DNA from: a virus
Length of the DNA stretch: 43,940 bases
Virus record (IMG/VR): IMGVR_UViG_3300014501_000028
Location: 1-43,940 of that record
Strand: one strand, 5' to 3'
Below are positions 261 to 33,564 of the stretch, piece after piece. The translations under genes were made by a program, and so were the position numbers. Under the pieces are notes generated by a model. It ran no database searches and was not told the origin of the DNA. It saw nothing but the letters and a program-made list of their open reading frames with translations. Each line of letters begins with the position of its first letter. The stretch's first letter is position 1.

Positions 261-1361
261 CTAGGCAATTGCGACGATTCTGGCATTCCGTGTTTTTGCT
301 CTGGTGCCATGTAGGTGCCAGGCGCCCGCTTTTTTCGGCCTCTCTTTTACCAGGGTGTCGACCGCGGAGTGTAGGTGCCCGCGCGACAAATGCATGTAGC
401 GCAACGTGGTCTGGATCCCCTTGTGGCCCATCAGCTCCTGAATGCTGCGCACGTCGGCTCCGGCCATAGCCAGGCGCGACCCGAAGGTATGCCGCAGGTC
501 ATGCCAGGTGAAATCCAAAATCTTCGCTTCCGCGCAGGCCGCCTCGAACCACCGGCGGAAGTCGCGCTGCTCCTCGGCTCCGCGATCGGGACAAACGAAC
601 GGCGCGCCGGCCGTCTGGCGGCGGAGCCGCGCGATCGCTGCTAGCGCGGTACGGTTCAGGGGAATATGCCGGCTCCCGGTTTTACCGGATTCCGGAACGA
701 TCAGGGTCTGGTGCTCGACGTCGACGTCCGACCAGCGCAGCGCATACTGTTCGCCGCGGCGCATCCCGGTGTTCAGCGCGAGCTCAAACTCCGCCAGGCC
801 AGTGGGGTGAATCTTGCAAATTGATTTCCGCAGCCGTGGTTCTTCCTTGTCGGTGAGAAAACGGATCCGGCCTGGGCTCTCCCGGTATCGTTCCACCTTG
901 GCCACCGGGTTCACCTGAATCGAGCCGGCCTCGACCCCGTGCGCGAAGACGCTGCTGAGCAGGGAACGGTAGCGGTTCGCGGTTCCGGTGGCGCGGCCCA
1001 TCTCAACGAGGCCGGCGAGCATCTGGGAAATGGTGACCGCGGTGATGGAGGCCGCGGGAAGATCCCCGTACAAGGTGAGCAGCGGCTCGAGGCGGATCTC
1101 ATCAGCGCGGTAGGACTTCGGCCGGATCCGGGTCCGCTTATGCTGCATTCGGGAGCTCGCGAGCTCGCGAAAGGTGGGCCCGTGCGACGCGGTCCGCGGC
1201 GCCTGGAATTTCCCTTCGCGGATTTCCTGGCGTCGCTGGTAGTAGGCCTCGACGGCGACCGATTCGCGTCCCACTTTTTCGCGGTGACGCGCGCCGGCTG
1301 CGTCCTGGTAGTTTATCCACCAGACGCCAGAACCCTTCGGTTTTTCAAATACTCCGCGCAC
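261..1361 (-). CDS. int: tyrosine integrase 1, next to attL
   Basis: Site-specific recombinase expected to join attP and the tRNA attB. With the GTG start at 1361 it is 366 aa. An AAGG ribosome site lies 10-16 nt upstream, and the start matches that of integrase 2 (V-x-G-(V/I)-F-E-(K/R)-P). The SAM-like arm/core-binding region spans about 60-160. Catalytic residues are R201 in NTGMRRGE, K near 227, H287-x2-R290 (HDLRHTF), H313 (GHK) and Y322. The reading frame is open further upstream to 1472, but that extension overlaps the preceding gene and lacks family similarity. The 3' end overlaps the putative arm sites at 301-383. Transcription runs straight into the tRNA. Confidence 0.93.
   Translation of the reverse strand: MRGVFEKPKGSGVWWINYQDAAGARHREKVGRESVAVEAYYQRRQEIREGKFQAPRTASHGPTFRELASSRMQHKRTRIRPKSYRADEIRLEPLLTLYGDLPAASITAVTISQMLAGLVEMGRATGTANRYRSLLSSVFAHGVEAGSIQVNPVAKVERYRESPGRIRFLTDKEEPRLRKSICKIHPTGLAEFELALNTGMRRGEQYALRWSDVDVEHQTLIVPESGKTGSRHIPLNRTALAAIARLRRQTAGAPFVCPDRGAEEQRDFRRWFEAACAEAKILDFTWHDLRHTFGSRLAMAGADVRSIQELMGHKGIQTTLRYMHLSRGHLHSAVDTLVKERPKKAGAWHLHGTRAKTRNARIVAIA
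301..383. repeat. left arm-type repeats (candidate integrase/excisionase binding sites)
   Basis: CTGGTGCCATGTAGGTGCC at 301-319 occurs again without mismatch and in the same orientation at 43378-43396, near the other prophage end. A third element, GTAGGTGCCCGCG at 371-383, matches 43388-43400. Repeats flanking the core on both sides are the expected layout of P and P' arm sites of a lambda-type recombinase. The left copies lie inside the 3' end of int. Binding is inferred. Confidence 0.6.
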
Positions 1362-1375
1362 GTCGAACCTTTGCC

Positions 1376-1654
1376 TTAGTGGACTGCCAGCCGGAGACCG
1401 CTTTGTTTTAATTGTACGGTGCGAATTCCTGGCTCTACCTGCGCCCCGGCCTGCAGGCGCTGCAGAAACCATTCTCTTTTTTCACGGAGGGCGAGGTCGG
1501 CCTGGCGTTTGGCTTCTCGCAGGAGGGCGAGTTCGGCCAAATCTTCCTGAGTAATTAGGATTTTCCTTCTCCAAGCTAGACCCTTCATGACCACAATTTT
1601 TTGTTCGCCCATGAACACGAGCTTCTGGTGATGGTGGTTTCGCGGCAGATTCAC
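1376..1654 (-). CDS. small coiled-coil protein upstream of integrase
   Basis: 92 aa from GTG at 1654, chosen because a strong GGGGAGG lies 6 nt upstream. The middle (about residues 35-70) is a charged Leu/Glu/Arg-rich helix likely to form a coiled coil, for example LAELALLREAKRQAD. The N-terminus is rich in His and basic residues. I do not recognise a family. It ends 14 nt before the integrase start and begins 12 nt after the upstream RHH gene, so all three are probably one transcript. A role in regulating or assisting integration is possible but only by position. Confidence 0.65.
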   Translation of the reverse strand: MNLPRNHHHQKLVFMGEQKIVVMKGLAWRRKILITQEDLAELALLREAKRQADLALREKREWFLQRLQAGAQVEPGIRTVQLKQSGLRLAVH

Positions 1655-2952: not shown

Positions 2953-3162
2953 ATGCAATACGAACCGGACGATGGCGACCTCATCGATGGAGTCGGTTTC
3001 GCCGACCCCGGCGGAAATTCCGCACTTCGAGCCGCAACGAAAAAGAACCCGCGCAATTTGCCGTGCCCAAACTGCGGCGCGAAAAACCGTCTCACTCGAG
3101 CCGACCGCGCTCGCGGCTACCAATGCGACAGTTGCGCGGACCAGTTGGAACGCGGCTACTAA
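2953..3162 (+). CDS. small zinc-ribbon protein
   Basis: 69 aa from ATG 2953 with AAGGAGGG 6 nt upstream. A single zinc ribbon occupies the C-terminal half: CPNC ... CDSC, 17 residues apart, with basic residues between (KNRLTRADRARGY). The N-terminus is acidic. It sits between the 'terminator'-like gene and its usual partner. Such ribbons bind nucleic acid or protein; no specific role can be given. Confidence 0.75.
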   Translation: MQYEPDDGDLIDGVGFADPGGNSALRAATKKNPRNLPCPNCGAKNRLTRADRARGYQCDSCADQLERGY

Positions 3163-3942: not shown

Positions 3943-4950
3943 GTGGCAAAGATTCCCGGGATTTTCGAGAGGCCGCCGCGGTCCGGCACCTGGTGGGTGT
4001 CCTACATCGATGCCGATGGAGATCGGCACCGGGAGAAAGCGGGGCGCCGCACCCAGGCGATGGACCTGGTGGCTCGCCGGCGAATGGAGGTGAGAGACGG
4101 GCGGTTCATCGCGCCGACCAAGGGAGCGCGCCTCACGTTCCGCGACCTGGCGGCCGCGGCACTGGCGCAGAAAAAATTGAGGCTCGCTCCTCTCTCCTAC
4201 ATTACCGACCGCCGGCGCCTGGAAAAACTCCTGCCCTACATCGGCCATGTGCCGGCCGATCGCCTCACCCCCGATCGCATCGAGGAAACCCTGGCGCAGC
4301 TCCGCCGTTCGGTGTCGACGTCCACCACCAATCGGTACCGTTCCCTGATCGGGTCGATTTTTTCTTTTGCGGTGCGCGCCGGCCGTATCGCCATGAACCC
4401 GGTTAACCGGGTGAAGCGGTACCGCGAAAACGAATCGCGCCTGCGGTGGATGAAGGACTCCGAAGAGGCCGCGGTGCGCAAGCACCTGTCTGCGGAGCAC
4501 GCGGCCGAGTTCGACCTGGCGCTGCACACCGGAATGCGGCGCGGGGAGCAATACGGTTTGAAGTGGAAGGATGTCGACCTCGAGCGCGGGATCCTGACCG
4601 TGCGCGGAAAAACCGGGCGCCGGCACGTCGTGGCCGGCAAAACCGCGATCAAGGCGCTGCGGGTCCTGCAGGGGCATACCGGCGCCGAAGAATTCGTCTC
4701 CACCGGCCACCACGGAACGCCCCAGCGGGATTGGCGGCGCTGGTTTGAAGACGCGCTCAAGAAAGCCGGCGTGAAAGATTTTCACTGGCACGACCTCCGG
4801 CATACGTTCGCCTCGCGCCTGGTGATGCGGCGCGTCGATATCCGGACGGTGCAGGAGCTCCTGGGTCACAAATCGATCGTGATGACCATGCGCTATGCGC
4901 ACCTGTCTCGGGACCATCGCGCCGCGGCCGTGGAAAAAATGAACGGATGA
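3943..4950 (+). CDS. tyrosine integrase 2, full length
   Basis: 335 aa from GTG 3943 (TAAGGGG upstream). A complete tyrosine recombinase: R199 in HTGMRRGE, K223 (GKTGRRH), H283-x2-R286 (HDLRHTF), H309 (GHK), Y318 in MRYAHLS. It is homologous along its whole length to integrase 1 (same N-terminus, NRYRSL block, NPV-V-RYRE block) but clearly diverged. It lies among early genes far from either attachment site and in the opposite direction to integrase 1. Possibilities are an excision-biased recombinase, the relic of a second element, or a resolvase. Confidence 0.9.
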   Translation: MAKIPGIFERPPRSGTWWVSYIDADGDRHREKAGRRTQAMDLVARRRMEVRDGRFIAPTKGARLTFRDLAAAALAQKKLRLAPLSYITDRRRLEKLLPYIGHVPADRLTPDRIEETLAQLRRSVSTSTTNRYRSLIGSIFSFAVRAGRIAMNPVNRVKRYRENESRLRWMKDSEEAAVRKHLSAEHAAEFDLALHTGMRRGEQYGLKWKDVDLERGILTVRGKTGRRHVVAGKTAIKALRVLQGHTGAEEFVSTGHHGTPQRDWRRWFEDALKKAGVKDFHWHDLRHTFASRLVMRRVDIRTVQELLGHKSIVMTMRYAHLSRDHRAAAVEKMNG

Positions 4951-5105
4951 ATGTGGGAGTCGAAGGTCGACGAAGCTGGATTTACCGCGCGGTGATCTGC
5001 CGTTCGTGGCGCAGGAATAAATTCGCCATCGTGCATCGGTGTACGCGGGGGATCCTGCACGTTGGCTCCCACGTTTGTCGGTGCGGGTATCGGTGGCGGC
5101 GGTGA
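4947..5105 (+). CDS. 52-aa basic zinc-knuckle microprotein
   Basis: ATGA overlap with the integrase 2 stop suggests coupled translation. The protein is very basic (RRSW, RSWRRNK) and ends with a Cys/His cluster: HRCTRGILHVGSHVCRCGY. The start is chosen only from the overlap. Its stop at 5105 precedes the next start by 11 nt and contributes to that gene's GTGAGGTGG ribosome site. Function unknown. Confidence 0.5.
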   Translation: MNVGVEGRRSWIYRAVICRSWRRNKFAIVHRCTRGILHVGSHVCRCGYRWRR

Positions 5106-5116
5106 GGTGGATTCCG

Positions 5117-5419
5117 ATGGGCTCGAACGATCGCTATAACCGGCAGTACAACACGCTCAGGGAAATGCCGGCGGAGGTCCTGGCGAACGTGGTTACGCAC
5201 GATTTGCGCTCGCGGCCGATCGAGGAGTGGGTCGGGGTTCTGGCGACGCTGTTCGAGGAGATGCGCCTCGAGTACCGGGCGCCAGGTGAAATCGAGGAGC
5301 GGAAGTGCAGCTACTGTGACGCCATGACCAACCATCGGCTGGAAAAATTGAAGGACGTCGGGACCACGCTCGACCTTATTTTCCGGTGTGTGGATTGCGA
5401 CAAGGTGACGCTGCCGTGA
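5117..5419 (+). CDS. zinc-ribbon protein
   Basis: 100 aa from ATG 5117. The N-terminal half is helical and charged, with a DLRSRPIEEWVGVLATLFEE stretch. The C-terminal half contains a zinc ribbon, CSYC ... CVDC, separated by about 26 residues. The stop overlaps the next start (GTGA). Probably protein- or DNA-binding; no family name recognised. Confidence 0.7.
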   Translation: MGSNDRYNRQYNTLREMPAEVLANVVTHDLRSRPIEEWVGVLATLFEEMRLEYRAPGEIEERKCSYCDAMTNHRLEKLKDVGTTLDLIFRCVDCDKVTLP

Positions 5420-5652
5420 GCGACCCGGTGTGCGTCAACCATCCCGATCGCAAAGCCCACCGTATGGTGCCGAAGGTGGGCCCGATCTGCGATGAATGTT
5501 TTCGTCCTGGCGGCGCGCCCGGGACGATACCGCAAATCCGCGAGACGATCGCGCGGGTCGAAGAGACGGAAGACGCGAAAGAGGAGACGACAGTGGCTAA
5601 AAAAGAACCGCCGTTCTGTACCCAGTGCGCGGTGTCAAGCCGCGGGCTTTGA
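5416..5652 (+). CDS. Cys/His-rich small protein
   Basis: 78 aa from GTG 5416, coupled by GTGA overlap. Metal-ligand candidates are C6, H8, H14, the CDEC pair near 25 and CTQC near 70, separated by an acidic helix (RETIARVEETEDAKEE). This looks like one B-box-like or zinc-finger N-terminus plus a second half-site. Function unknown; one of the microprotein series of the early operon. Confidence 0.6.
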   Translation: MSDPVCVNHPDRKAHRMVPKVGPICDECFRPGGAPGTIPQIRETIARVEETEDAKEETTVAKKEPPFCTQCAVSSRGL

Positions 5653-5744
5653 ACGGGAACGCGCGCTTCGCGATCGCGATCGCAGAGCTCACCGCGGAGC
5701 GCGATCGCCTGCAGGGAATCATCGACCAGCTCGAGGCGATGTAG
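5625..5744 (+). CDS. 39-aa coiled-coil peptide
   Basis: GTG 5625 start, overlapping the previous gene by 28 nt. The sequence IAELTAERDRLQGIIDQLEA is a strong heptad-type helix common in tiny phage proteins. Adjacent reading frames have less plausible composition in this stretch. The start is uncertain. Confidence 0.4.
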   Translation: MRGVKPRALNGNARFAIAIAELTAERDRLQGIIDQLEAM

Positions 5745-5837
5745 GTGGTTCACCGGCCAACGACGACGGTGATTAAAGAGGCGTTCGGATGCGCACGGCA
5801 GCCCGCCACAGAACTCATTGGGGAGCGAACCGCGTGA
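5745..5837 (+). CDS. possible 30-aa peptide
   Basis: GTG directly follows the previous stop, and the end overlaps the next start (GTGA). Composition is unremarkable (VIKEAFGCARQPATELIG). Only the overlap pattern supports it. Confidence 0.28.
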   Translation: MVHRPTTTVIKEAFGCARQPATELIGERTA

Positions 5838-6028
5838 GGCCATACGAAGATTCCCGGGTCCGGCTCGATTGGGCTTTCAACAAGGCCGCGAAATTTCTGC
5901 GTCGGTTCGGCGGCGAGCTCGAGGGTTTCGGGCGGTTGCTGCAGCCGTACCAGATCAGCCGGATGCAGCTCCCGCTGGCGCGGCTCCTGCGCGCGGTGGC
6001 CAGGGCATCGGGAGGACGGCGCCGATGA
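5834..6028 (+). CDS. 64-aa basic helical protein
   Basis: GTG 5834 with GGGGAG 9 nt upstream; ATG 5789 is an alternative giving 79 aa. Rich in Arg and Leu with amphipathic helices (AFNKAAKFLRRFGGELEGF, LPLARLLRAVARASG). The stop overlaps the ASCH gene start (ATGA). Function unknown. Confidence 0.5.
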   Translation: MRPYEDSRVRLDWAFNKAAKFLRRFGGELEGFGRLLQPYQISRMQLPLARLLRAVARASGGRRR

Positions 6029-6714
6029 AAGCACTTTCACTCACGCAGCCGTGGGCCTCGCTGATGTGCGACGGCCGCAAAACGATCGAGACCAGGTCCT
6101 GGGCGCCTCCGCTGTCGCTGATGGGCGAGCGGTTCGCGATCCACGCGGCGCGATCGATCATGCGCGGGCAGTGTTTCATGTTCGGGTACGAGCCGGAGCG
6201 GATCCCGCGGGGCGCGCTGCTTTGCACCGTGGAGTTAATCGGGTGCCTACGTACTCCGTTCCGGCCGGGCGCGATCGAGCTCCTTCTCGGCCGCCCACCA
6301 TTTATCGAAGAGCGGCTGAACGAGTGGGATTTCGGAAACTTCGAAGACGGGCGTTATGCGTGGTTCATCCGCGACGTCCAGAAGTTCGCGGCGCCGATCC
6401 CGGCGATCGGGCGCTTGGGACTTTGGGAGTGCGGTCCGCTCGAGGTGCTCCTCGAGCTCGCGGCCCGCCGTCGCCGCCGGAAAAGTTCCCCCCTCAGACG
6501 AGGGGGCGAAGGAGGCAGAAAAAAAATGAACGTCCAAGCAAAGAAGGCGTACGAGGCTTACACGCAATCGATGCACGGATCCCATGCGTCGGCCCGGTAC
6601 GAGAACCTGGCGCCGACGGAACGCGCGGCGTGGGATGCGGTGGCGGCCGCGCTGGGGCATGCGGCTCCGGCGGAGACGGAGGGTCGGAAGTATGCGGTGG
6701 GCGAGGAGGTCTAA
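6025..6714 (+). CDS. ASCH-domain protein with an in-frame C-terminal extension
   Basis: 229 aa. Residues 1 to about 150 form an ASCH domain (PUA-like RNA/nucleotide-binding fold): it begins KALSLTQPWASLM, has GRKTIETRSW, a central FAIHAA, and the terminal GLWE. ASCH proteins are proposed RNA-binding regulators and some hydrolyse modified cytidines. After an Arg-rich linker (RRRRRKS) the frame runs on into a 62-aa segment that has its own ATG at 6526 with GGAGG 10 nt upstream, preceded by a GC hairpin at 6489-6506. So the gene may be a fusion, or two proteins may be made from it. ATGA overlap with the upstream gene. Confidence 0.8.
   Translation: MKALSLTQPWASLMCDGRKTIETRSWAPPLSLMGERFAIHAARSIMRGQCFMFGYEPERIPRGALLCTVELIGCLRTPFRPGAIELLLGRPPFIEERLNEWDFGNFEDGRYAWFIRDVQKFAAPIPAIGRLGLWECGPLEVLLELAARRRRRKSSPLRRGGEGGRKKMNVQAKKAYEAYTQSMHGSHASARYENLAPTERAAWDAVAAALGHAAPAETEGRKYAVGEEV
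6489..6526 (+). promoter_or_regulatory. hairpin and internal ribosome site inside the ASCH frame
   Basis: CCCCCTC (6489-6495), loop AGAC, GAGGGGG (6500-6506) forms a perfect 7-bp stem. GGAGG follows at 6511-6515, then an A-rich spacer and ATG at 6526 in the same frame. An independent product of 62 aa starting MNVQAKKAYEAYTQ is therefore likely in addition to, or instead of, the full-length protein. Confidence 0.5.
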
Positions 6715-6887
6715 AAAAAGGGGGGTCCAGCCGTCCTGGGCCCCTCGAAAATCCTGGCACCAGGAGTGGCACCAGACGGGTTTTGGAACGAAAACGTCAA
6801 AAACGGCCTCTACGCTCTACATAACGGGCCGGTTAAAACGCACGGTTTTACACGCAGGACTACGGGTCCTGTGGAAGAGGAGGCAAA
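6715..6887. other. intergenic region with arm-like repeat and two hairpins
   Basis: No gene. CCTGGCACC-N5-TGGCACCAG at 6753-6775 is, in reverse, very close to the left arm repeat at 301-322 (CTGGTGCCA...GGTGCCAGG). Two small hairpins follow: TAAAAC/GTTTTA (6834-6839, 6845-6850) and CAGGAC/GTCCTG (6855-6860, 6866-6871). The latter could also be read as a 5-bp stem with a 7-nt loop CTACGGG, like a tRNA anticodon arm, but no T arm follows. GAGGAGG near the end is the ribosome site of the next gene. Confidence 0.45.
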
Positions 6888-7439
6888 ATGACCGATCAAC
6901 CCCCCAGGCCGACTACCGGCCAACCCGGCTCCGGCGGCGATCCAGGCCCCCGCCAGAACCCTCCCTGGGGCCGGGAAACTGGCAATACTGCAGCTCCCCC
7001 GGAGAGCAAGAAACGTATCTGTCCTGATTGCGGCTCAGACCTCGACATCCATCCCGAACCCGGGATGATCTACACGCGTTGCCCGCGCTGTTATCCAGCG
7101 GGGTCGACCTCTGAATTTGCAGCGGAGCGCGACCGCGCGGTGTCGCTCCTGTCGGCCGCCGCGCGCAGGATCATCGAGCGCGTCTATGAAATCTACCAGC
7201 CCGATTACATCAAGCGCTGCTATCTCAAAGAGCCCGACAGTTTCCTCGCGTTGGTGATAGGCCTCGACGACGCGCTGGACCGGGTTCTCTACTTACGTTC
7301 GACGCCAGGTCCCTTCGGTTGCTGTTCCTCTTGTGACCGGATTCTGGAGCTTTTGCCCCGATCCGGCCGCCTGAAAATCTGGGCGTGCCGCAATTGCAAT
7401 CCGGATCGGTTCTCGGCGCTGGAGGTCCGCGAGGAATGA
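6888..7439 (+). CDS. double zinc-ribbon protein
   Basis: 183 aa from ATG 6888 with GAGGAGG 6 nt upstream. A Pro/Gly-rich disordered N-terminus (1-43) is followed by zinc ribbon 1 (CPDC near 45, CPRC near 65), a helical middle (AAARRIIERVYEIYQP ... LALVIGLDDALDRVLYL), and ribbon 2 (CCSSCDR ... LKIWACRNCNPDRF). The C-terminal ribbon is the same module as in the next gene but one (7567-7872). Likely cytoplasmic; might bind host RNA polymerase or nucleic acid, but nothing in the sequence proves this. Confidence 0.75.
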   Translation: MTDQPPRPTTGQPGSGGDPGPRQNPPWGRETGNTAAPPESKKRICPDCGSDLDIHPEPGMIYTRCPRCYPAGSTSEFAAERDRAVSLLSAAARRIIERVYEIYQPDYIKRCYLKEPDSFLALVIGLDDALDRVLYLRSTPGPFGCCSSCDRILELLPRSGRLKIWACRNCNPDRFSALEVREE

Positions 7440-7567
7440 ACACTAAAGTGTGCACCCGGCGAGTTCATTCTCACTCTCTCCTCCACGGGTTCTTTCGTCC
7501 TCGCCGCCGTCACCGTAGTTCGGGAATTTTTTTTTCAAAATCTAAGGCCCCAGGAGGCAAAAAGTGA
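7436..7567 (+). CDS. possible 43-aa basic peptide
   Basis: ATGA overlap with the previous stop and end at the next start. Arg/His/Ser-rich (RRVHSHSLLHGFFRPRRRHR). The DNA contains ACACTAAAGTGT, a small dyad, so this stretch may be regulatory rather than coding. Confidence 0.22.
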   Translation: MNTKVCTRRVHSHSLLHGFFRPRRRHRSSGIFFSKSKAPGGKK

Positions 7568-7872
7568 TGGAGAAACTTCTCGGGGTTCTCGCGGTTCTAG
7601 GTTTTCTGATTTTCGAGTTGTGTCTGTGGTACCTCTACCGGAAAATCCACGCCCTAACGATCAAAATCTGCACCGAGCTCGGGGAACGGGTTAAACGCCT
7701 CGAGGAGTTTCACACTCTGGGGACCGCAATCCGTATCGAGGCTCCCGTTTGCTGCAGTTGCGGCAGGGAGCTCGAGGCCTTGAGCAATCGCCGTTTCAAG
7801 ATCTGGGGCTGCCAGGTTTGCAATGCCGATTATTTCACCGAGGAAGCACACCGGAAAGGCGGTGTGATGTGA
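7567..7872 (+). CDS. membrane-anchored zinc-ribbon protein
   Basis: 101 aa from ATG 7567 (AGGAGG at 7552-7557; GTG 7564 also possible). One N-terminal transmembrane helix, about residues 3-23 (LLGVLAVLGFLIFELCLWYL), is followed by a cytoplasmic helix and a C-terminal zinc ribbon, CSCGRELEAL ... FKIWGCQVCNADYF. The ribbon matches that of 6888-7439 in spacing and in the (F/L)KIW-x-C-x2-CN core, so the two genes share a duplicated module. Function unknown. Confidence 0.7.
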   Translation: MEKLLGVLAVLGFLIFELCLWYLYRKIHALTIKICTELGERVKRLEEFHTLGTAIRIEAPVCCSCGRELEALSNRRFKIWGCQVCNADYFTEEAHRKGGVM

Positions 7873-8126
7873 CGCTCGCGGAATGGACGGTGCAGATATC
7901 CGCGGAGCTCGAGGCGGCCGGGTTCGCGGTTTCCCAGTACGACGGTCTTCCCCTGGTGCCGCGGCCGGAATCTCACCACGAAACCGTCCGGCTCTTGAAC
8001 TTCCAGACGTCGCTCGCGTGTGACCGCAGGATCTACAGCGAGGGGATGCTATTCGCTCCGCTCGGCTCGTATCAACTGGCCGAAATTGCCCGAGCAAAGG
8101 ACCGAGATGCCGGCGCGGCTAAATGA
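7869..8126 (+). CDS. 85-aa hypothetical early protein
   Basis: GTG 7869 overlapping the previous stop (GTGA). Begins LAEWTVQISAELEAAGFAV, a helix typical of small two-layer alpha/beta proteins, then alternating strands. No metal motif and no family recognised. Confidence 0.6.
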   Translation: MTLAEWTVQISAELEAAGFAVSQYDGLPLVPRPESHHETVRLLNFQTSLACDRRIYSEGMLFAPLGSYQLAEIARAKDRDAGAAK

Positions 8127-8388
8127 ACGGTCGTTCGAGATCCGGTGGTCCGACGGTTCTTGTGGAGACGCCGGGTGCGCGAGTCCATCGTGCGTGTGCG
8201 CGCTCTGCGCCAGGCCGATCGGAGTTAGCGCAGACGATCCGCGCTGGTGGGTTCATCGGGAGGAGTGCCTGGGCTGCGAGCTCTGCGAGGACCAGGTCCC
8301 GATCATGCTCTGGCGGAATGTGGGAAACGGCAAGACCCTGCAGCAGGCCGCGTTCCACGGTCGGTGTTTCAAAAAACTTCTGGAGTGA
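8107..8388 (+). CDS. Cys-rich LIM/treble-clef-like protein
   Basis: 93 aa from ATG 8107, overlapping the previous gene by 20 nt. About ten Cys and two His (CGDAGC, CVCALC, HREECLGCELC, then HGRC) suggest two zinc sites in a treble-clef or LIM-like arrangement. Basic C-terminus. Function unknown; fits the zinc-microprotein series. Confidence 0.6.
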   Translation: MPARLNERSFEIRWSDGSCGDAGCASPSCVCALCARPIGVSADDPRWWVHREECLGCELCEDQVPIMLWRNVGNGKTLQQAAFHGRCFKKLLE

Positions 8389-8401
8389 AGGGAGGCGATG
8401 A

Positions 8402-8587
8402 ATGCCCCGAAAAAAAGTGAAGACGGCCTCGGCGTGGAAGGTCGGGCAGTGGGTTCGCTTCGCTCACGAGGCGCTCGAGCGCCCCAGTTTCAAAATCGCG
8501 GCGATCAATAAAGACGGGATGCTCGAGCTCGAGGACTGGACCGGCTGGTTCCATCCGGAAATTTTCGTGGCCGGCAAACCCAGGTGA
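8402..8587 (+). CDS. 61-aa beta-rich (SH3/KOW-like) protein
   Basis: ATG 8402 with GGGAGG 5 nt upstream. After a Lys-rich start the pattern WKVGQWVRFAHEALERPSFK, then IAAINKDGMLELEDWTGWF resembles a small beta-barrel (SH3/KOW type). Stop overlaps GTGA with the next frame. Confidence 0.55.
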   Translation: MPRKKVKTASAWKVGQWVRFAHEALERPSFKIAAINKDGMLELEDWTGWFHPEIFVAGKPR

Positions 8588-8817
8588 ACCGTGAGCGGGG
8601 AGTCACGGTTAAAGTTTTTCGGGTGCTGGTGCAGCGTACCGAGTTTGGGGAGAGGCTCTGTGTTCGGGAGACGTGCTATGCGGTCGAAAGGTCAACGGGT
8701 AGTGGAGGCGCTGATGCCATGTTCGCGGGTCAAGCTGGCGGATGGGATGGTGGCGATCGTGTGCGGGAAGATGCGGCGGCTGCCGAAATGCCGTTTTTGC
8801 GGCGAACCGAGCACTAA
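8584..8817 (+). CDS. uncertain small gene overlapping its successor
   Basis: GTG 8584 coupled to the previous stop; 77 aa. The first 40 residues look coding (VTVKVFRVLVQRTEFGERL), the rest overlaps the next, better supported gene by 104 nt in another frame and has poor composition. Either a real overlapping gene or an upstream region of the 8714 gene. Confidence 0.35.
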   Translation: MNRERGVTVKVFRVLVQRTEFGERLCVRETCYAVERSTGSGGADAMFAGQAGGWDGGDRVREDAAAAEMPFLRRTEH

Positions 8818-8941
8818 ACTCTGCGACAAAATCCTGGCGACGACCATCGCCGGCGCCGAGCTCACCTGCGACAACCCGATCTGTGGCGGGTGCGCGAGCT
8901 CCGTTGGCCCCGATAAAGATTTTTGCCCGAGGCACTCATGA
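8714..8941 (+). CDS. zinc-binding small phage protein
   Basis: 75 aa from ATG 8714 with GGAGG 6 nt upstream; the open frame extends upstream to 8591 but the MPC start is typical of this type of protein. Motifs: CSRVKLADGMVAIVCG, CRFCG, then CDNPICGGC and a final CPRH. This layout (MPC...AIVC...C-C pairs) is common in early regions of actinobacterial and other phages, function unknown. Stop overlaps next start (ATGA). Confidence 0.65.
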   Translation: MPCSRVKLADGMVAIVCGKMRRLPKCRFCGEPSTKLCDKILATTIAGAELTCDNPICGGCASSVGPDKDFCPRHS

Positions 8942-9159
8942 AAATCCGGACTACTCCCACCTGCCACCGGCGGCAAAGGTTCGTGAGTCTGGGCATCGCC
9001 GCGGAAACCTCGGTGTTTCTCCGCCAGCACGGCGCCGACGTCCAGTTCTGTCCGGAGCGATGTTCCGCCTGTAATTATTTCCACCTGGTGTGGGCCCGGC
9101 GCCCGGTTGTGCAGCCCGTGGTTTTGGAGAAAGCAAAAAGGAGAAGCGCGCATGCCTGA
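8938..9159 (+). CDS. small zinc-knuckle protein
   Basis: 73 aa from ATG 8938. N-terminal TTPTCHRRQRFVS and middle CPERCSACNYFHLV give a Cys/His site like that of short phage proteins that read C-H...C-x2-C-x3-H. Basic tail. Coupled by ATGA overlap. Function unknown. Confidence 0.6.
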   Translation: MKIRTTPTCHRRQRFVSLGIAAETSVFLRQHGADVQFCPERCSACNYFHLVWARRPVVQPVVLEKAKRRSAHA

Positions 9160-9400
9160 AAAACTGACATCCGTTTCGCTAGCCTATGTTCCGGGTCTGC
9201 GGGGAGAAGTGGCGCTGTGCATCCGGACGGACCAGGGCGACTACACTGCCACCGCGACAACCTTGCGGCAGATTCGCGCGAAAGCGCAGGCGCTCGCGGC
9301 CGCGTTCCCTGAGCTCGTGGAGATCATGCGGCTGTTCGCGGATCCGGACGTTGGCGGCATGCCGGATATTTTGGAGGATAGAAAAAATGTTTCCCATTAA
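9152..9400 (+). CDS. 82-aa hypothetical protein
   Basis: ATG 9152 with AAAAGGAG upstream, overlapping the previous gene by 8 nt. Begins with strands (SVSLAYVPG, VALCIRTDQGDYTATAT) and then a long helix (LRQIRAKAQALAAAFPELVEIM). A plausible small alpha/beta fold without recognisable family. Confidence 0.55.
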   Translation: MPEKLTSVSLAYVPGLRGEVALCIRTDQGDYTATATTLRQIRAKAQALAAAFPELVEIMRLFADPDVGGMPDILEDRKNVSH

Positions 9401-9593
9401 ACCAGGGCGGTGCCGGGTGTGCGGATGTACCGAAGACCATCCTTGCCTGTCCACCGAGGACGGCGTTCGCGTGGTGGCGTGCGCCTGGCTCGATACCGGC
9501 CGGACGCTGTGCTCGAATGTCGCTTGCGTTGGAGCGATTCCCCTCGCCGCATTGCTGGCGATGCCGGCGGCGAATCCTTTTGGTGGGTTTTGA
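9387..9593 (+). CDS. zinc-finger-like early protein
   Basis: 68 aa from ATG 9387 (GGAGG 7-10 nt upstream). CRVCGCTEDHPC, then CAWLDTGRTLCSNVAC: the C-x2-C-x-C...C...C-x4-C pattern is widespread in small phage proteins containing CxxCGCT-x-H. Ends with a hydrophobic segment. The stop overlaps the next frame. Confidence 0.6.
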   Translation: MFPIKPGRCRVCGCTEDHPCLSTEDGVRVVACAWLDTGRTLCSNVACVGAIPLAALLAMPAANPFGGF

Positions 9594-10102
9594 CCGAGTA
9601 TCCGTTCCCGGTGGAGTTCAACAGCGCGCGGTACACCCGGCTGTATCTCTACTCCCAGGCGAACGAGGCGCGCGTGCAGGCCGACGTGATCACCTTGCTT
9701 CGCTCCTACGGGGTCGACGCGTGTGCGATCGATGCCGGCGGCCGACGAGCGCGCGGCCGGATGATGGCGGCCGCGAAGAGCGCCGGCGTCGCGCTCGCGG
9801 GAATCCAAAACGTAAAAACCGGATCCGCAATTCCGGCCGGGTTCGCGGATGTGGAAGCGACGCTCGCGCCGGACGGCCGCGCGCTGTACATCGAAATCAA
9901 GGCGCCGGCGTGGATAAATTCTGACGGGAGCCTGATTCGGCGCGCGGGAAAACCGAGCGCCGAGCAGCTCGAGTTCCTGATGTCCAAACATCGCCGCGGC
10001 GCGCTGGTGCTGATTGCGTGGTCGGCGACCGACGTGAACGAATGGTTCCAGACCGAGCTCGCCGAAAACCAACGGGCGCTGCGAAGAGCGACCTGCAGAT
10101 GA
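9590..10102 (+). CDS. VRR-NUC type PD-(D/E)xK nuclease-like protein
   Basis: 170 aa if it starts at TTG 9590 (TTGA overlap); GTG 9611 is an alternative. The core reads E near 23-25 (ANEARVQADVITLL), a Gly-rich turn, then G-F-A-D-V near 84-88 and YIEIKAPAW near 100-107, i.e. the catalytic D87, E102-x-K104 of a VRR-NUC/PD-(D/E)xK fold, followed by S-x-EQ-x-FL typical of VRR-NUC proteins. These phage enzymes cleave branched or flapped DNA during replication or recombination. Confidence 0.8.
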   Translation: MTEYPFPVEFNSARYTRLYLYSQANEARVQADVITLLRSYGVDACAIDAGGRRARGRMMAAAKSAGVALAGIQNVKTGSAIPAGFADVEATLAPDGRALYIEIKAPAWINSDGSLIRRAGKPSAEQLEFLMSKHRRGALVLIAWSATDVNEWFQTELAENQRALRRATCR

Positions 10103-10557
10103 AACTTAAGTTTCGCTACGTGGCGATCGATCCCGCGCGCTCCTCGCTCGCGCGTGAGCTCGGGAAGGCCTCCTACCTCGACGAGTTCCTAACCCACTGC
10201 CAGACCGATGCCCGCGGCCGGGTCAATTACGGACGGCCGATTACCTACAAGTGGATCTGCGGCCGGATGAAAATCTCGGTATGCCGGAAGACGCTGCAGC
10301 GGTGGATGGGACGGCTGCAGGATCTCGCGCGCGTCGAAGTGGTGGCTGCTCCGGGTGGGATGCGGGTGCGAATTCTGAATCAAAAAAAATGGCCGAGCTC
10401 CGCCCAGCTATCGCTTTTCCCGGCGCCCGCTCCGCGGTGCATTTCCTCTGGGAAACCTTGTGCAAAACCAGCGGAAAAGCTGTGGGGTCCAGTAGTTCTG
10501 GGCCGGACAAAAATGTCACCCCCCCCCGGACAAAAATGTCACCCCGGTGGGGTCTAA
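10099..10557 (+). CDS. helix-turn-helix protein, candidate replication initiator
   Basis: 152 aa from ATG 10099. The region 30-100 has a winged-HTH pattern used by phage replication proteins (YKWICGRMKISVCRKTLQRW as the HTH, then a wing RVEVVAAPGGMRVRIL). The C-terminal tail (105-152) is low complexity. The last 50 nt of the gene carry two 20-bp direct repeats, an arrangement seen when an initiator gene contains its own origin. No helicase loader or primase follows. Confidence 0.6.
   Translation: MKLKFRYVAIDPARSSLARELGKASYLDEFLTHCQTDARGRVNYGRPITYKWICGRMKISVCRKTLQRWMGRLQDLARVEVVAAPGGMRVRILNQKKWPSSAQLSLFPAPAPRCISSGKPCAKPAEKLWGPVVLGRTKMSPPPGQKCHPGGV
10503..10550. repeat. iteron-like tandem repeat in the 3' end of the HTH gene
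   Basis: CCGGACAAAAATGTCACCCC occurs at 10503-10522 and 10526-10545, a 23-bp period, about two helical turns. Each copy contains the dyad GACA-AAAA-TGTC. A CCCC-GGT-GGGG hairpin overlaps the end (10542-10552). Candidate origin iterons or an operator. Confidence 0.5.
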
Positions 10558-10614
10558 GTTTTTGATTTTGCGGCTAGTTGGAAACCCGTTAGGAGTAAGT
10601 CTGAGGAGAAGTAC

Positions 10615-10848
10615 TCAAACAGCGGTCGAATCCCCAGGCCGGAGACGGTTTTGATGCGGAAAAACCAGCGGACCACGGTACACGTCCAGGTCGGCCGTGG
10701 GAAAAAGCTCCTCGAGGACCGTGGCGATATCGCCGGCGCAGAGCTCGAGCAAAACCGTTCCCTGGAAGTACTCCGGCTGCAGGCGCAGCTCCGCAGCGCA
10801 CAAACGGAGACGGTTCTTTACGGCCAGCAATCGGGCGCGTGTGTCCAT
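10615..10848 (-). CDS. lone leftward gene in the early region, unknown function
   Basis: 77 aa from ATG 10848, with AAAGGA 6 nt upstream on the minus strand. The sequence is coherent (RARLLAVKNRLRLCAAELRL, then LLELCAGDIATVLEELFP), helical in the first two thirds. The overlapping plus-strand frame is much less protein-like. It runs against about 8 kb of rightward genes and is convergent with the HTH/iteron gene, so it has its own promoter and perhaps acts in control of replication or lysogeny. No HTH is recognisable. Confidence 0.6.
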   Translation of the reverse strand: MDTRARLLAVKNRLRLCAAELRLQPEYFQGTVLLELCAGDIATVLEELFPTADLDVYRGPLVFPHQNRLRPGDSTAV

Positions 10849-10877
10849 GACGGTCCTTTCAGTTTATCAAGAAACCA

Positions 10878-11066
10878 ATGACCAAAAACCATCGAGAAAC
10901 GGAGATTTCGAAGATCGGGGTCACCTCGCGGAATTGCGCATTTCCCGAATTTAAGTGTTCCGCCTGCAGCACGATTTTCGTGTACGAGTCCGACGAGGAT
11001 CTCCTGGCCGAAGGCATGCGCGCTCCGGCGTTTTGCCCGATCTGCGGAAGGAGCAACGGCTCGTGA
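10878..11066 (+). CDS. zinc-ribbon microprotein
   Basis: 62 aa from ATG 10878. One zinc ribbon: CSAC near 28 and CPIC near 54, with an acidic insert (VYESDEDLLAEG). The form, with CPxCG close to the C-terminus, resembles small ribbons that dock on larger enzymes. Only about 30 bp separate it from the divergent 10615-10848 gene, so both promoters must overlap neighbouring sequence. Confidence 0.6.
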   Translation: MTKNHRETEISKIGVTSRNCAFPEFKCSACSTIFVYESDEDLLAEGMRAPAFCPICGRSNGS

Positions 11067-11200
11067 GCGGATCCGAGTGGCTCCTGCTGGCAGGGATTTA
11101 CTGCATCCCGGTGGTTCTGTGGTTGATCGAATATCGCCGGAGAGTGAGGCGCGAACGGCAATGGGACGAAAGGCAGCGTCGGTGGTTCAGGCGAAAATAG
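11063..11200 (+). CDS. 45-aa single-span membrane peptide
   Basis: GTG 11063 overlaps the previous stop (GTGA). One transmembrane helix, about 5-22 (WLLLAGIYCIPVVLWLI), then a strongly basic cytoplasmic tail (RRRVRRERQWDERQRRW). Coupled translation upstream and overlap with the next peptide support it. Function unknown. Confidence 0.5.
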   Translation: MSGSEWLLLAGIYCIPVVLWLIEYRRRVRRERQWDERQRRWFRRK

Positions 11201-11265
11201 CATCGATCCGGAAGCGGATCCGCAAGCTGCTCAGGTGGATCCGGGTCCGAGCGAGGAAAAAATGA
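11161..11265 (+). CDS. 34-aa strongly cationic amphipathic peptide
   Basis: ATG 11161 inside the end of the previous gene, another frame; its stop overlaps the next start (ATGA). It has 14 Arg/Lys and no acidic residue; AKIASIRKRIRKLLRWIRVR would form an amphipathic cationic helix, like membrane-active peptides. Short length and overlap make it uncertain. Confidence 0.4.
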   Translation: MGRKAASVVQAKIASIRKRIRKLLRWIRVRARKK

Positions 11266-11447
11266 AAACCGCGAAGACAATCGTCGGGGTTGAAAAATCA
11301 TCGACCGAAAAAGGACGGTGGCTCCTGAAGTTGGAGTGTGGTCACGAGTTCTGGGTTTCGCAGCCCCGCAAACCGAACCAAAAAACCACGATGTGTGCTG
11401 AATGCGAAGAGCTTCGGCATAACCCATTGTCTGCAAATTCAAAATAG
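11262..11447 (+). CDS. 61-aa zinc-knuckle protein
   Basis: ATG 11262 in an ATGA overlap. Strand-rich N-terminus (TIVGVEKSSTEKGRWLLKLE), then a Cys/His site C-x-H...C-x2-C (ECGHEFW ... MCAECEEL), the same layout as small host and phage proteins described only as zinc-ribbon. Function unknown. Confidence 0.6.
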   Translation: MKTAKTIVGVEKSSTEKGRWLLKLECGHEFWVSQPRKPNQKTTMCAECEELRHNPLSANSK

Positions 11448-11459
11448 GGAGTGGCGACG

Positions 11460-11708
11460 ATGCGCGGATCAGACTACTTTTGGCTTGTGGTGTGTGGCCT
11501 GCTGGCTCGTTTTATTTTCGGGATGCTCGGCGACCGACCTCTCGAGGCGACGGACTATTTCACTCTGTTCGGTTGCTTCCTGGTGGTGGTGCTGGCGCTG
11601 AGACTGGCTCGCAGGATAACCTCGCCGGAATTCCTGGCTGAGCTCGCGGAGCTCCGCCGGCAGAAGGAGGACCGCGGTGCTCGCCGAAAAGATTTTCCCG
11701 ATGATTAA
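11460..11708 (+). CDS. two-span membrane protein
   Basis: 82 aa from ATG 11460. Two predicted transmembrane helices, about 5-22 (YFWLVVCGLLARFIFGML) and 32-50 (YFTLFGCFLVVVLALRL), then a charged cytoplasmic tail. It overlaps the next gene by 32 nt. Could be a holin-like or superinfection-exclusion protein; position in the early operon favours the latter, without proof. Confidence 0.5.
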   Translation: MRGSDYFWLVVCGLLARFIFGMLGDRPLEATDYFTLFGCFLVVVLALRLARRITSPEFLAELAELRRQKEDRGARRKDFPDD

Positions 11709-11973
11709 AGCGCTCGAGAACGACCCCAGGATCGTCGAGCGGGCGAGTGAGCTCGACGAAAACCTCCCGTTTAAGGAAACCGTCATCGGCATGGATTCGG
11801 CTCCCGAATCTGTCCGGTGGTCGGCCTGCTGTTTTCTTCTCCGTTCGATGCACGCGGCTCTGCTGATCGCGAACCACGAAGCCTGGTGCGATAGCGGCGC
11901 CGCGCTGCTGTTCATGGTTCGGCGCTGGCAGGAGCAAGGCGGCAGCTCCGTTTCCGAGTACGGACCGAATTGA
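11677..11973 (+). CDS. 98-aa helical hypothetical protein
   Basis: GTG 11677 with AAGGAGG 7 nt upstream. Mainly helical: EKIFPMIKALENDPRIVERA, then a Cys/Ala-rich helix (CCFLLRSMHAALLIANHEAW). Soluble. No family recognised. Confidence 0.55.
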   Translation: MLAEKIFPMIKALENDPRIVERASELDENLPFKETVIGMDSAPESVRWSACCFLLRSMHAALLIANHEAWCDSGAALLFMVRRWQEQGGSSVSEYGPN

Positions 11974-12083
11974 AGATTCGCGCGCGCATCGCCGGGTTCC
12001 TGCTCTGTTTTTTCGGTTTCCACGATCGCCAGTTTCCCGGGAATCGGTGTCAGCGGTGCAATCGCAAGGACCGGCGACGATGA
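11970..12083 (+). CDS. 37-aa hydrophobic/zinc-knuckle peptide
   Basis: TTG 11970 overlaps the previous stop (TTGA) and the end overlaps the next start (ATGA). RIAGFLLCFFGFHDRQF followed by RCQRCNRKD has the plan of short phage proteins with an aromatic N-terminus, His, then CxxC. Start codon and existence rest on coupling and this pattern. Confidence 0.4.
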   Translation: MKIRARIAGFLLCFFGFHDRQFPGNRCQRCNRKDRRR

Positions 12084-12340
12084 CGTTACCCGCGAGCCGT
12101 TTGGATTTGAAAAAGCGCCGGTGGGTTGAAGGCGAATCGCGGCCGTGTAAGCTGTGCGGAACCCCGATCGAGTTCTGGCGCTCTCCGGATACCGGCAAAA
12201 TTCATCCCCTCGAGGTCCGCGCGGAATTGGATTGGGTTCTGGATACGCATTTTCGCTACTGTCCGCGGGGCGAGGAAATGAAGAAACGGAACGCGCCTGC
12301 CAAAAAGGCGATCCCGAAAACCGGAAATTTGTTTCCATGA
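12080..12340 (+). CDS. 86-aa Cys/His zinc-finger-like protein
   Basis: ATG 12080. CKLCGTPIEFW near 23-33, then H45 (KIHPLEV), H58 (DTHFRYCP) and C62: a C-x2-C...H...C site as in small proteins annotated as phage zinc-finger-like. Basic Ala/Lys tail. Stop overlaps next start (ATGA). It is the last gene of the zinc-microprotein run. Confidence 0.6.
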   Translation: MTLPASRLDLKKRRWVEGESRPCKLCGTPIEFWRSPDTGKIHPLEVRAELDWVLDTHFRYCPRGEEMKKRNAPAKKAIPKTGNLFP

Positions 12341-12996
12341 ACACCAGCGTCGATATCGATATCAGCCTGGCGCTCAAGGTCACGGCTCAGGCCATCCGAA
12401 AAATTCCGTACGCGACCAACAACGCGATCACTCGCGTCGCTAAGGAAATGGTCGATGCCGGCAGAGCGGAAATCTCAGCGCACTTCCAAATCCGAAAAAA
12501 CTTCATTCTGACCCGCCTGAAAATCCTGCAGTATTCCCGAGTCTCGAATCTCACGGCCATCGTGGGAATCGATACCGCGGTGCAGGGATCTCCGTTGCTC
12601 CTGGGGATTTTCGAAGAAGGCGGAACGAAGGAACCGGATAACGGTTCCGGAATCGCGGTTCCGATCACGGGTTCGCCGGCGCGGCCCACGTTTTCGGATG
12701 CGGTGGTTCGCGCGCTGCAATATACGAAGCTGCAGCTCTCGACCACCGCGACCGATCAATCGATTCGCGGTCTGCAGCACACTTACGTGGTTCCCGGTGT
12801 TGGCGTTTTTGAACGGGTTGCTCCCGGGAACGATCCGGGTGCAACGGTTCTGATCTATGCTTTTGAACCAAGCGCGCCGTTGAAAAAGCGGATAAGTCTG
12901 ATCCAGGTGATGAGTGATATCGTGAGCGCGCGCTTCAATCCGATTTTCTGGCAAGAGTATGCGAACGAAATCGCTCAGCAGAAACCAGCGAGGTAG
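12337..12996 (+). CDS. phage minor tail protein Z-like
   Basis: 219 aa from ATG 12337. N-terminal helix AQAIRKIPYATNNAITRVAK, then MVDAGRAEISAHFQIRKNFIL and a strand-rich middle: this is the plan of lambda gpZ-like minor tail proteins (A-x-N-x-T-A/R...F-x-R-x-F/T). In lambda, gpZ is needed for correct tail-tip/tail completion. Its place upstream of the terminase rather than with tail genes is unusual. Confidence 0.5.
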   Translation: MNTSVDIDISLALKVTAQAIRKIPYATNNAITRVAKEMVDAGRAEISAHFQIRKNFILTRLKILQYSRVSNLTAIVGIDTAVQGSPLLLGIFEEGGTKEPDNGSGIAVPITGSPARPTFSDAVVRALQYTKLQLSTTATDQSIRGLQHTYVVPGVGVFERVAPGNDPGATVLIYAFEPSAPLKKRISLIQVMSDIVSARFNPIFWQEYANEIAQQKPAR

Positions 12997-27694: not shown

Positions 27695-28195
27695 ATGCAC
27701 AGCCTTATGAGACGACAACGACTCGAAGGTAAGAGATTTGGGAAATGGAAGGTGCTCTCTTTCGCTGGAGTGCGGGGCACCCATTCCTATTATCGCGCGC
27801 GGTGCGCCTGCGGAACCCGGCGGACTGTAGAGGCCTCAACCCTACCAAACGGGATCTCTAAGAGTTGCGGCTGTCTGAGAGCTGCCATTCCAAACGTCCG
27901 CAACACGACCCATGGGATGAGCAAAACTCCTATCTATAGGTGCTGGGGGCAGATGCTCGATCGGTGCCGAAACCCGCGAAGCGGTGGGTTTCGGAATTAC
28001 GGAGGGCGCGGGATTCGCGTCTGCGCTCGATGGGCGAATTCCTTTCTAGCGTTCTATCGCGATATGGGGTTGCGCCCGCGGGGGCTCTCACTGGACCGGC
28101 GGAACAACGACGGCGATTACCGACCGGGCAATTGTAGGTGGGCTACTGCATCGGAGCAGCGGATAAATCAGCAGCGGAGGAACAAGCGTGCCTGA
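27695..28195 (+). CDS. HNH-type homing endonuclease 1
   Basis: 166 aa from ATG 27695 (ATG 27710 is equally plausible). A zinc site at the N-terminal side, CACG ... SCGC, then the family core GMSKTPIYRCWGQMLDRC, NYGGRGIRVC, RW-x2-SF-x-AFY-x-DMG, and SLDRRNNDGDYRPGNCRWAT. Free-standing phage endonuclease that cuts related phages at the empty locus. It separates GT from the tape measure gene; its 3' end carries the GGAGG ribosome site of the tape measure gene. Lower GC than its neighbours. Confidence 0.85.
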   Translation: MHSLMRRQRLEGKRFGKWKVLSFAGVRGTHSYYRARCACGTRRTVEASTLPNGISKSCGCLRAAIPNVRNTTHGMSKTPIYRCWGQMLDRCRNPRSGGFRNYGGRGIRVCARWANSFLAFYRDMGLRPRGLSLDRRNNDGDYRPGNCRWATASEQRINQQRRNKRA

Positions 28196-33093: not shown

Positions 33094-33564
33094 ATGCGAG
33101 CGAGACTGCAGCTCAAAGGTCGGCGTTTTGGCAAGTGGTCTGTGGCACGGCTTCATCATGTTGAGAGCGGGCGCACAATATGGCTTTGCAAGTGTGCGTG
33201 CGGTAGCTCCCAGACCGTAGCTGGCTACAGTCTGGTGCGAGGTGATTCGAGGAGCTGCGGCTGCGGCAGACCTGGAAACCTAATTCATGGGATGCGCCAC
33301 TCGCCAGAATACCAAGCGTGGTGTGGCATGATCGCTAGGTGTACGAATCGCAAAGATAAGTCGTGGGAAAATTACGGAGGTCGGGGAATCAGGGTTTGCG
33401 TCCGCTGGCGCAAATCCTTCGCGGCATTCTTCAAGAACATGGGACGGAGGCCCAGTCGTAGGCATTCGCTGGACCGTCGAGAAAACGACGGGAACTACAC
33501 TCCACAAAATTGTCGTTGGGCGACCAGATCACAGCAAAATAGAAATCAGCGCAGGTGGTTGTAG
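33094..33564 (+). CDS. HNH-type homing endonuclease 2
   Basis: 156 aa from ATG 33094 (AGGAG upstream). Same family as the genes at 27695 and 36063: N-terminal LKGRRFGKWSVARL, zinc site CKCACG ... SCGC, then HSPEYQAWCGMIARC, YGGRGIRVCVRW, FKNMGRRPSRRHSLDR, and DGNYTPQNCRWAT. Inserted between two tail-tip genes without breaking either. Confidence 0.85.
   Translation: MRARLQLKGRRFGKWSVARLHHVESGRTIWLCKCACGSSQTVAGYSLVRGDSRSCGCGRPGNLIHGMRHSPEYQAWCGMIARCTNRKDKSWENYGGRGIRVCVRWRKSFAAFFKNMGRRPSRRHSLDRRENDGNYTPQNCRWATRSQQNRNQRRWL

Follow-up and report, generated by a model that had tools for sequence, protein, structure and literature searches.

The window analysed here, a stretch of viral DNA of 43,940 nt, contains a run of short ORFs with paired Cys and His residues, which raises the questions of whether these ORFs are genes, whether their density is exceptional and whether they serve one function. 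The original prediction counted thirteen zinc-ribbon microprotein genes between positions 4947 and 12340 and one more at 2953, and the listed ORFs with their Cys/His motifs were all found in place. Genes are named by their start positions, and all features described are on the + strand.

Genomic setting and coding capacity of the run

The window is a complete prophage inside a tRNA-Met gene of a soil bacterium and is flanked by 42-bp repeats (att); a close relative was found in a Terriglobia MAG. An integrase and a terminase of the lambda gpA type (TerL, by tblastn against named phages) are present in the same prophage. The gene order common to relatives is integrase, variable small genes, 8714, 9387, VRR-NUC-like nuclease, helix-turn-helix gene, 12080 and tail gene. 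In relatives, the variable interval is bounded on the left by a second tyrosine integrase (3943..4950) and on the right by a tail gene encoding 219 aa (12337..12996). The many overlap couplings originally described were confirmed, with 4-base overlaps (ATGA, GTGA or TTGA) at 11 of 23 gene junctions, 3 of them dependent on TTG starts, and overlaps of 8-32 bases at a further 4. The small overlapping genes are packed beside replication or recombination genes in the manner of a nin-like region. Promoter and terminator scans gave no signal above shuffled sequence, and no downstream Q-like gene was identified in the window.

A protein was scored as passing a zinc test if it was ≤200 aa long, had three or more Cys and contained two spaced pairs matching CX2-4[CH] or HX2-4C. 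Of the 14 listed genes, 12 passed (2953, 5117, 5416, 6888, 7567, 8107, 8714, 8938, 9387, 10878, 11970 and 12080), while 11262 failed narrowly (CxH and CxxC) and 4947 also failed. Eleven passing genes lie within 4947-12340, or ten when genes are called automatically. An initial gene finder based on codon usage recovered no more than 5 of the 14 since Cys codons were rare in its training set. Once the amino-acid bias for Cys and His was neutralised, 12 of 14 were recovered with 4947 and 11970 missed, and other starts were chosen for 6888, 8714 and 9387. Twelve of the listed genes were accepted, 11970-12083 is regarded as doubtful and 4947-5105 was rejected. The rejected 52-aa ORF (4947..5105) has no good Shine-Dalgarno (SD) sequence, no CxxC and no relative among the compared loci, a weak tblastn match to locus L005 being unconfirmed; it is probably the leader of 5117.

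Passing genes made up 12 of 26 small early genes compared with 0 of 18 late ones (Fisher p 4.6e-4), the early genes of the window having been chosen by hand for this comparison, and the Cys content of small genes was 4.1% early versus 0.8% late. Random proteins of the phage's composition gave a mean of 0.12 passing and a maximum of 2 in 2000 trials. Shuffling of Cys revealed that the arrangement within single proteins is often unexceptional given the high Cys content. The case rests on how much Cys the proteins contain and on the conservation of those residues, not on the arrangement.

The density of the run had been called striking. The run holds 10 passing genes in 7.4 kb by automatic calling, compared with 8, 6, 5, four 2s, five 1s and 32 zeros in 44 arbitrary virus loci, which were those of ≥7 kb among 62 drawn at random and which, being on average shorter, gave the window more chances. 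Since the zinc test is loose and some passes in random loci are doubtful (several in L080), this baseline is too high rather than too low. The same count in 29 relatives reached a maximum of 9. The window marks the upper extreme of the densities in its lineage and is neither unique nor a new system. In 16 loci with automatic genes throughout, passing genes were in excess inside the interval (61 of 226) compared with outside (15 of 197; p 1.2e-7). Several relatives had been recruited via 8714 or 9387 and hence hold one by design; the count was therefore repeated without 8714, 9387, 12080 and the window, leaving a modest excess (27 of 178 versus 13 of 172; p 0.029).

Three recurring families beside DNA-processing genes

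The families of 8714, 9387 and 12080 form a backbone, recurring in 53, 33 and 25 loci, respectively, with conserved Cys and purifying selection. These counts include both the window and L002, and overstate the number of independent viruses because of apparent duplicates (L152/L153, L155/L156, L161/L162, and L167 with L169 as the ends of one contig). L002 is 100% identical to the window over 13,717 bases and is for that reason uninformative on evolution. The ligand Cys were conserved in all five families having relatives, namely these three together with 8107 and 5117, the last two judged on one or two relatives. Loss of Cys in homologues, which would have spoken against the original prediction, was thus not seen in these five families, and their dN/dS was ~0.3.

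The 75-aa product of 8714 (8714..8941) has eight ligands in four pairs, ligands 3 and 4 being far apart, and its family shows a Cys conservation of 0.86 versus 0.34. Together with this signature, a structural model and fold search suggest that it is a probable two-metal cross-brace finger. The fold search returned a synaptotagmin-like finger, a FYVE domain and a finger of the SRCAP complex as weak matches (Z 3.2 to 2.0, far below a safe match) and nothing significant among viral models. RING-like cross-brace fingers (B-box, FYVE, HIT), treated in PMC4506424, likewise have eight ligands in four pairs but lack the wide gap that separates ligand 3 from ligand 4 in 8714. With E values up to 1 allowed, 10 of 39 family members matched the B-box profile, the best at 3.5e-4, and the window's member gave no match. 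Among the 20 of 39 members rescanned singly, a set without the 3.5e-4 member, only that of L024 matched (0.11, 13.1 bits versus a cut-off of 24.1). The family shares membership with PHROG 10082 and 26165, both without function, which were matched by 20 and 17 of the 39 members (best 2e-27 and 1.6e-9) and weakly by the window's own protein (1.1e-4 and 2.5e-4). In named phages, relatives were found in two Erythrobacter phages. The relative in one of them, phage ZS04, is labelled RNase H and adjoins an HNH gene.

The 68-aa product of 9387 (9387..9593) has 7 invariant Cys and a Trp, and gave no match in the fold search. One family member produced a single partial match in named phages, in an unannotated record, and a second member none. 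In all 15 loci holding both, 9387 lies upstream of the nuclease, and in 6 of 10 it overlaps the nuclease by stop-start bases. The 170-aa nuclease (9590..10102) matched no Pfam family at E 0.1 and is called only VRR-NUC-like since the assignment derives from PHROG endonuclease/resolvase matches and a motif read by eye. It is followed by a gene for a 152-aa helix-turn-helix protein (10099..10557), DnaD-like according to a weak PHROG match. The link between the trio and the nuclease is one of neighbourhood, and both 9387 and 8714 occur also in loci without the nuclease. The third family, the 86-aa C-x2-C ... H-x3-C protein of 12080 (12080..12340), shows conservation of 0.86 for Cys and 0.83 for the ligand His versus 0.19, and no match in 50,697 phage records. 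Single-linkage clustering also grouped 8714 with 12080, a putative link.

Variable genes of the interval

Most of the remaining zinc genes were found in the window only. Upstream of the interval, 2953 (2953..3162) encodes a 69-aa single zinc ribbon (CPNC...CDSC), is preceded by the SD sequence AAGGAGG, is called by the gene finder and precedes a phrog_1029-family gene; it had no relative among the compared loci, and its Pfam match to Zn_ribbon_IS1595 (2.8e-4) was below the cut-off. The 100-aa product of 5117 (5117..5419) has a C-terminal C2-C2 ribbon and a relative in L003 that is 55% identical and retains 4 of 4 Cys. The overlapping 5416 (5416..5652; GTGA), called by the gene finder, encodes a 78-aa C-x2-H / C-x2-C protein with the second CxxC near its end, for which there was no relative among the compared loci and no match in 50,697 phage records.

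Two genes are paralogous in part: the C-terminal ribbon of 6888 (6888..7439; 183 aa, two ribbons, SD AGGAGG, gene-finder start at 7065) resembles that of 7567 (7567..7872; 101 aa, called by the gene finder), which has an apparent N-terminal membrane helix by eye and a match to zf-HYPF below the Pfam cut-off (4.5e-4). A pattern search with this ribbon yielded 18 stretches and no relative. The 93-aa product of 8107 (8107..8388) contains 9 Cys and 2 His, and both of its relatives retain every one of them. It gave weak ferredoxin matches (E 0.1) in a sequence search of solved structures and no match in 50,697 phage records; judged from its sequence, the metal could be zinc or iron-sulphur.

The 73-aa CPERCSACNYFH protein of 8938 (8938..9159; ATGA overlap) has weak coding support (gene-finder score 1.5) and no relative among the compared loci except L002. 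The gene finder called both 10878 (10878..11066), a 62-aa C2-C2 ribbon with a match to RUBY_RBDX below the Pfam cut-off (3.8e-4) and a possible relative in L153, and 11262 (11262..11447), a 61-aa borderline ribbon whose match to Zn_ribbon_8 (0.012) was likewise below the cut-off. The doubtful 11970 (11970..12083), a 37-aa ORF with a TTG start and a TTGA overlap, had no relative among the compared loci except L002. Taken together, the proteins have Cys pairs as originally predicted, and the label of zinc ribbon is too narrow in view of the cross-brace-like 8714, the lack of a fold match for 9387 and the possible iron-sulphur protein 8107.

The number of zinc genes in relatives falls as low as 1. 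Single-locus families comprised 19 of 27 zinc and 61 of 85 other small families (p 1.0; early genes of the window chosen by hand), indicating equal turnover. The description of the run as a reservoir thus holds for the changing genes and not for the three stable families, and turnover was no faster than for other small genes.

Interpretation of the region

The explanation that we favour, with about even confidence, is that the stretch belongs to a temperate, lambda-like phage of Acidobacteriota and is its nin-like region of early accessory genes, where a zinc trio, conserved and adjacent to genes for DNA processing, is accompanied by changeable cargo. It is based on the excess of zinc genes with coding support, the Cys conservation, the dN/dS of ~0.3, the synteny, the interval excess and the precedent of lambda nin. 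Against it weigh the neighbourhood-only nature of the trio-nuclease link, the promoter and terminator scans at the level of shuffled sequence, and the modest interval excess once the trio and the window are set aside. The early region would probably be transcribed as one or few polycistronic messages, and each Cys-pair protein would fold round a single metal ion or a pair of them, with zinc the likeliest metal, to act as a small adaptor binding nucleic acid or protein. The trio may serve the neighbouring DNA-processing pair, with 9387 coupled to the nuclease, and the remaining zinc genes may be changeable early effectors directed at host or rival functions, each with its own target and with no single joint machine. 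If this is right, small early genes of Acidobacteriota phages that encode metal-binding proteins can be collected and screened at a fixed address, the interval from marker integrase to marker nuclease. The three families that recur, none with a function assigned, would then also offer clear metal-ligand residues to mutate.

The lambda nin region (ninB-ninI) is also composed of packed early-to-middle genes with stop-start overlaps, likewise holds DNA-processing genes (Orf, Rap), and 3 of its 7 tested genes (NinD, NinF, NinG) pass the same zinc test. It differs in its families and in density, with 2 zinc genes in the densest 7.4 kb of lambda versus 10 in the window by an automatic count that excluded loci <9 kb and duplicates. 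According to a lambda CRISPRi study, all 5 nin genes targeted are non-essential once Q is supplied (PMC10695390). No account of runs of zinc microproteins in phages was found in the open-access literature; in the available part of a paper on Acidobacteriota viruses the word zinc occurs in the reference list only (PMC11924767).

The original prediction had suggested host takeover or counter-defence. An account in which the majority of the zinc microproteins act as binding inhibitors of host machines or of defences is less likely, and such a role is possible for some members. The small, packed and variable genes match the hallmarks of the host takeover module of SPO1, a cluster of mostly small genes with mostly unassigned targets, as described in PMC6873191, whose text nowhere contains the word zinc; that module belongs to a lytic phage and was shown to be early and partly host-toxic. 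Also in favour, 2953 has sub-threshold Lar-type restriction-alleviation matches (Pfam 0.0048; NCBIfam 0.02), and in phage ZS04 the 8714 relative is near a gene annotated as DarB-like antirestriction. Matches of 2953 to other ribbons score as well or better. The role received no direct support: no zinc gene matched Pfam, NCBIfam (10 proteins) or any known inhibitor above the curated cut-off, PADLOC found none for 10 proteins at E 0.01, solved structures searched by sequence gave nothing below E 0.09, and the few PHROG matches at E ≤0.01 were all to families without assigned function. This absence of matches is compatible with takeover, but the stability of three families, unlike typical arms-race cargo, and a turnover equal to that of other small genes argue against it.

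A bolder extension of the nin-like reading, which we regard as rather improbable, is that the trio, the nuclease and the DnaD-like protein constitute one conserved phage DNA-processing module during takeover, with 8714 as a phage cross-brace adaptor of B-box-like type, and that the adjacent interval is an exchange hotspot of soil phages for metal-binding effectors. If true, the hotspot would be a place to look for new inhibitors directed at the host.

It is very unlikely that many of the ORFs are spurious products of high-GC DNA with Cys pairs noticed afterwards. The lack of coding support for 4947 and 11970, the low score of 8938 and the poor recovery by the unmodified codon model agree with that view, but Cys are conserved in relatives of five families (8107 and 5117 on very few) and of the 66 ORFs in the stretch that are not genes just 1 passed the zinc test. 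Treatment of the whole train as one system was rejected, as only 6888 and 7567 are clear paralogues and gene content varies freely. Least probable is one joint metal device, such as a sink for zinc or a redox buffer, starving the infected cell or protecting it. Such a device would account for the many different Cys-rich proteins in one run and for the early enrichment in Cys, but not for relatives with just one such gene or for the distinct ligand spacing and other residues held by each conserved family, which a mere sink would not need.

Coding support and abundance of the zinc-type genes

The original prediction placed 14 zinc-type open reading frames in the window (named here by start position), and all 14 were present. 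Cys/His motifs were confirmed for 12 of them by a two-pair test (at most 200 residues, at least three Cys and two spaced CX2-4[CH] or HX2-4C pairs), with 11262 failing narrowly and 4947 clearly; the latter was dropped as a gene, and 11970 is doubtful as a gene. A codon-usage gene finder recovered 5/14 in a first version biased against Cys and 12/14 after its bias on Cys and His had been corrected; the benchmark of 32/42, 43/44 and 46/46 plus-strand annotated genes of three phages covers the first version alone.

The test was passed by 12 of 26 early small genes versus 0 of 18 late ones, by at most 2 random proteins of the same composition and by 1 of 66 non-gene ORFs in the stretch. The excess of Cys/His-pair genes exceeds chance. 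By automatic calls, the densest 7.4 kb of the window holds 10 zinc-type genes, followed by 8, 6, 5 and 2 among the 44 virus loci, out of 62 drawn arbitrarily, that are 7 kb or longer. The top among 29 loci with the neighbouring nuclease is L143 with 9. Since arbitrary loci reach 8 and L143 reaches 9, the density is extreme yet continuous with other loci. Three arbitrarily drawn virus loci (L079, L080 and L089) carry 5-9 zinc-type small genes each, some doubtful; therefore, such runs exist elsewhere too.

Conservation and gene order in relatives

The original prediction would be refuted by a lack of conserved Cys positions in homologues; five families keep their Cys. Mean identity to the window was higher for Cys than for other residues in 8714 (0.86 versus 0.34, 40 other members), 9387 (0.94 versus 0.32, 28), 12080 (0.86 versus 0.19, 12), 8107 (1.00 versus 0.48, two) and 5117 (1.00 versus 0.52, one). 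Median dN/dS was 0.30-0.31 in 8714, 9387, 12080 and 8107, and the one 5117 pair gave 0.25, compared with 0.29 for the VRR-NUC-like nuclease (9590..10102, plus strand) and 0.22 for the tail gene (12337..12996), all values being rough as a consequence of high divergence (pS ∼0.6). Among the loci compared, 2953, 5416, 6888, 7567, 8938, 11262 and 11970 had no relative besides L002, a record of the same virus (100% identity over 13,717 bases); weak matches were found for 7567 in L112 (E 0.0086) and 5416 in L059 (E 0.06), and a single candidate relative of 10878 lies in L153.

Relatives share a gene order that runs from the integrase through variable small genes, 8714, 9387, the nuclease, the helix-turn-helix gene (10099..10557) and 12080 to the tail gene. 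Across 33 nuclease-bearing loci, a set that includes the window and L002, the nuclease is preceded by 9387 in 15/15 loci with both and by 8714 in 18/18, while 12080 is downstream in 16/18; the helix-turn-helix gene is directly 3' of the nuclease in 28/33. In a separate comparison, stop and start bases of 9387 and the nuclease overlap in 6/10 loci. The helix-turn-helix gene of the window encodes 152 residues (∼200-220 in most relatives) and is perhaps truncated at its end; the 320 bp that follow contain no clear plus-strand gene (region 10099-10877). In 16 syntenic loci, 61/226 small genes of the integrase-to-tail interval were zinc-type versus 15/197 outside (p 1.2e-7), 34/197 versus 14/196 without the trio of 8714, 9387 and 12080 (p 0.003), and 27/178 versus 13/172 without trio and window (p 0.029). 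Zinc-type genes number 1 to 10 per locus by automatic calls, the window being highest. The zinc genes turn over no faster than neighbouring small genes, since families confined to a single locus make up 19/27 and 61/85, respectively. The interval of L143 (4190-9451) holds seven zinc-type genes, mostly of families other than those of the window, plus the same trio.

Protein features and proposed role

The strict signature C-x1-2-C ... CD ... CD-x3-C-x2-[CH] ... C-x2-H was found in 27 of 39 members of the 8714 family, several of the remainder being fragments or variants. Fold searches with its AlphaFold model (pLDDT 86, pTM 0.54) gave no strong match; the best weak matches were cross-brace fingers (Z 3.2-2.0) and B-box profiles matched the family weakly. 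The protein is probably a cross-brace finger. The family overlaps phrog_10082 and phrog_26165, both groups of unknown function. Eight residues are invariant in 9387, seven Cys and one Trp; its model (pLDDT 84) had no match in fold searches, nor was there a PHROG match. Genes 6888 and 7567 share a ribbon, which indicates one duplication inside the train.

The genes, their packing, the conserved frame and the conserved ligands are observed. The reading we favour is a nin-like region in which the trio would assist DNA processing and the remaining zinc genes would be individual factors aimed at the host or rivals. Gene position points to early expression and coupling. Zinc folds are generally associated with nucleic-acid or protein binding, and such binding is predicted for these proteins. 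Against the nin-like reading, a promoter scan revealed nothing, and 9387 and 8714 each also occur in loci without that nuclease; the trio is linked to the nuclease by neighbourhood only. A role of the zinc genes in host takeover or anti-defence, raised in the original prediction, is a less likely alternative. The same kind of region is known in lambda and SPO1, and that of the window lies at the dense end.

The element, its host and other genes

The record of 43,940 bases appears to span an entire prophage plus some host DNA at both ends, since a 42-base stretch of a tRNA-Met gene (206-247) recurs at 43491-43532, the flanking direct repeats being identified from sequence as attL and attR. Positions 301-319 and 43378-43396 carry a second repeat, ∼19 bp long. 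The terminase (TerL) has relatives of ∼70% identity in L003, L004 and L009, and the last, a Terriglobia (Acidobacteriota) MAG, suggests Acidobacteriota as host phylum. The prophage encodes a pair of tyrosine integrases (261-1472, minus strand; 3943-4950, plus strand) that belong to the same family and share 48% identity. Relatives retain one at the position of the second, so the first, adjoining the tRNA, may be an addition.

Within the ASCH-domain gene (6025-6714), an ATG at 6526 with a strong ribosome site opens the last 62 residues; the gene is perhaps two fused genes or has an internal start. Three look-alike Cys-containing proteins of 156-172 residues among the tail genes (27695-28195, 33094-33564 and 36063-36581) resemble, by eye, AP2/HNH-type homing proteins. 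The 810-residue protein at 23236-25668, with long ETARAEAAE-type repeats in its first half, is probably a tail-fibre coiled coil.
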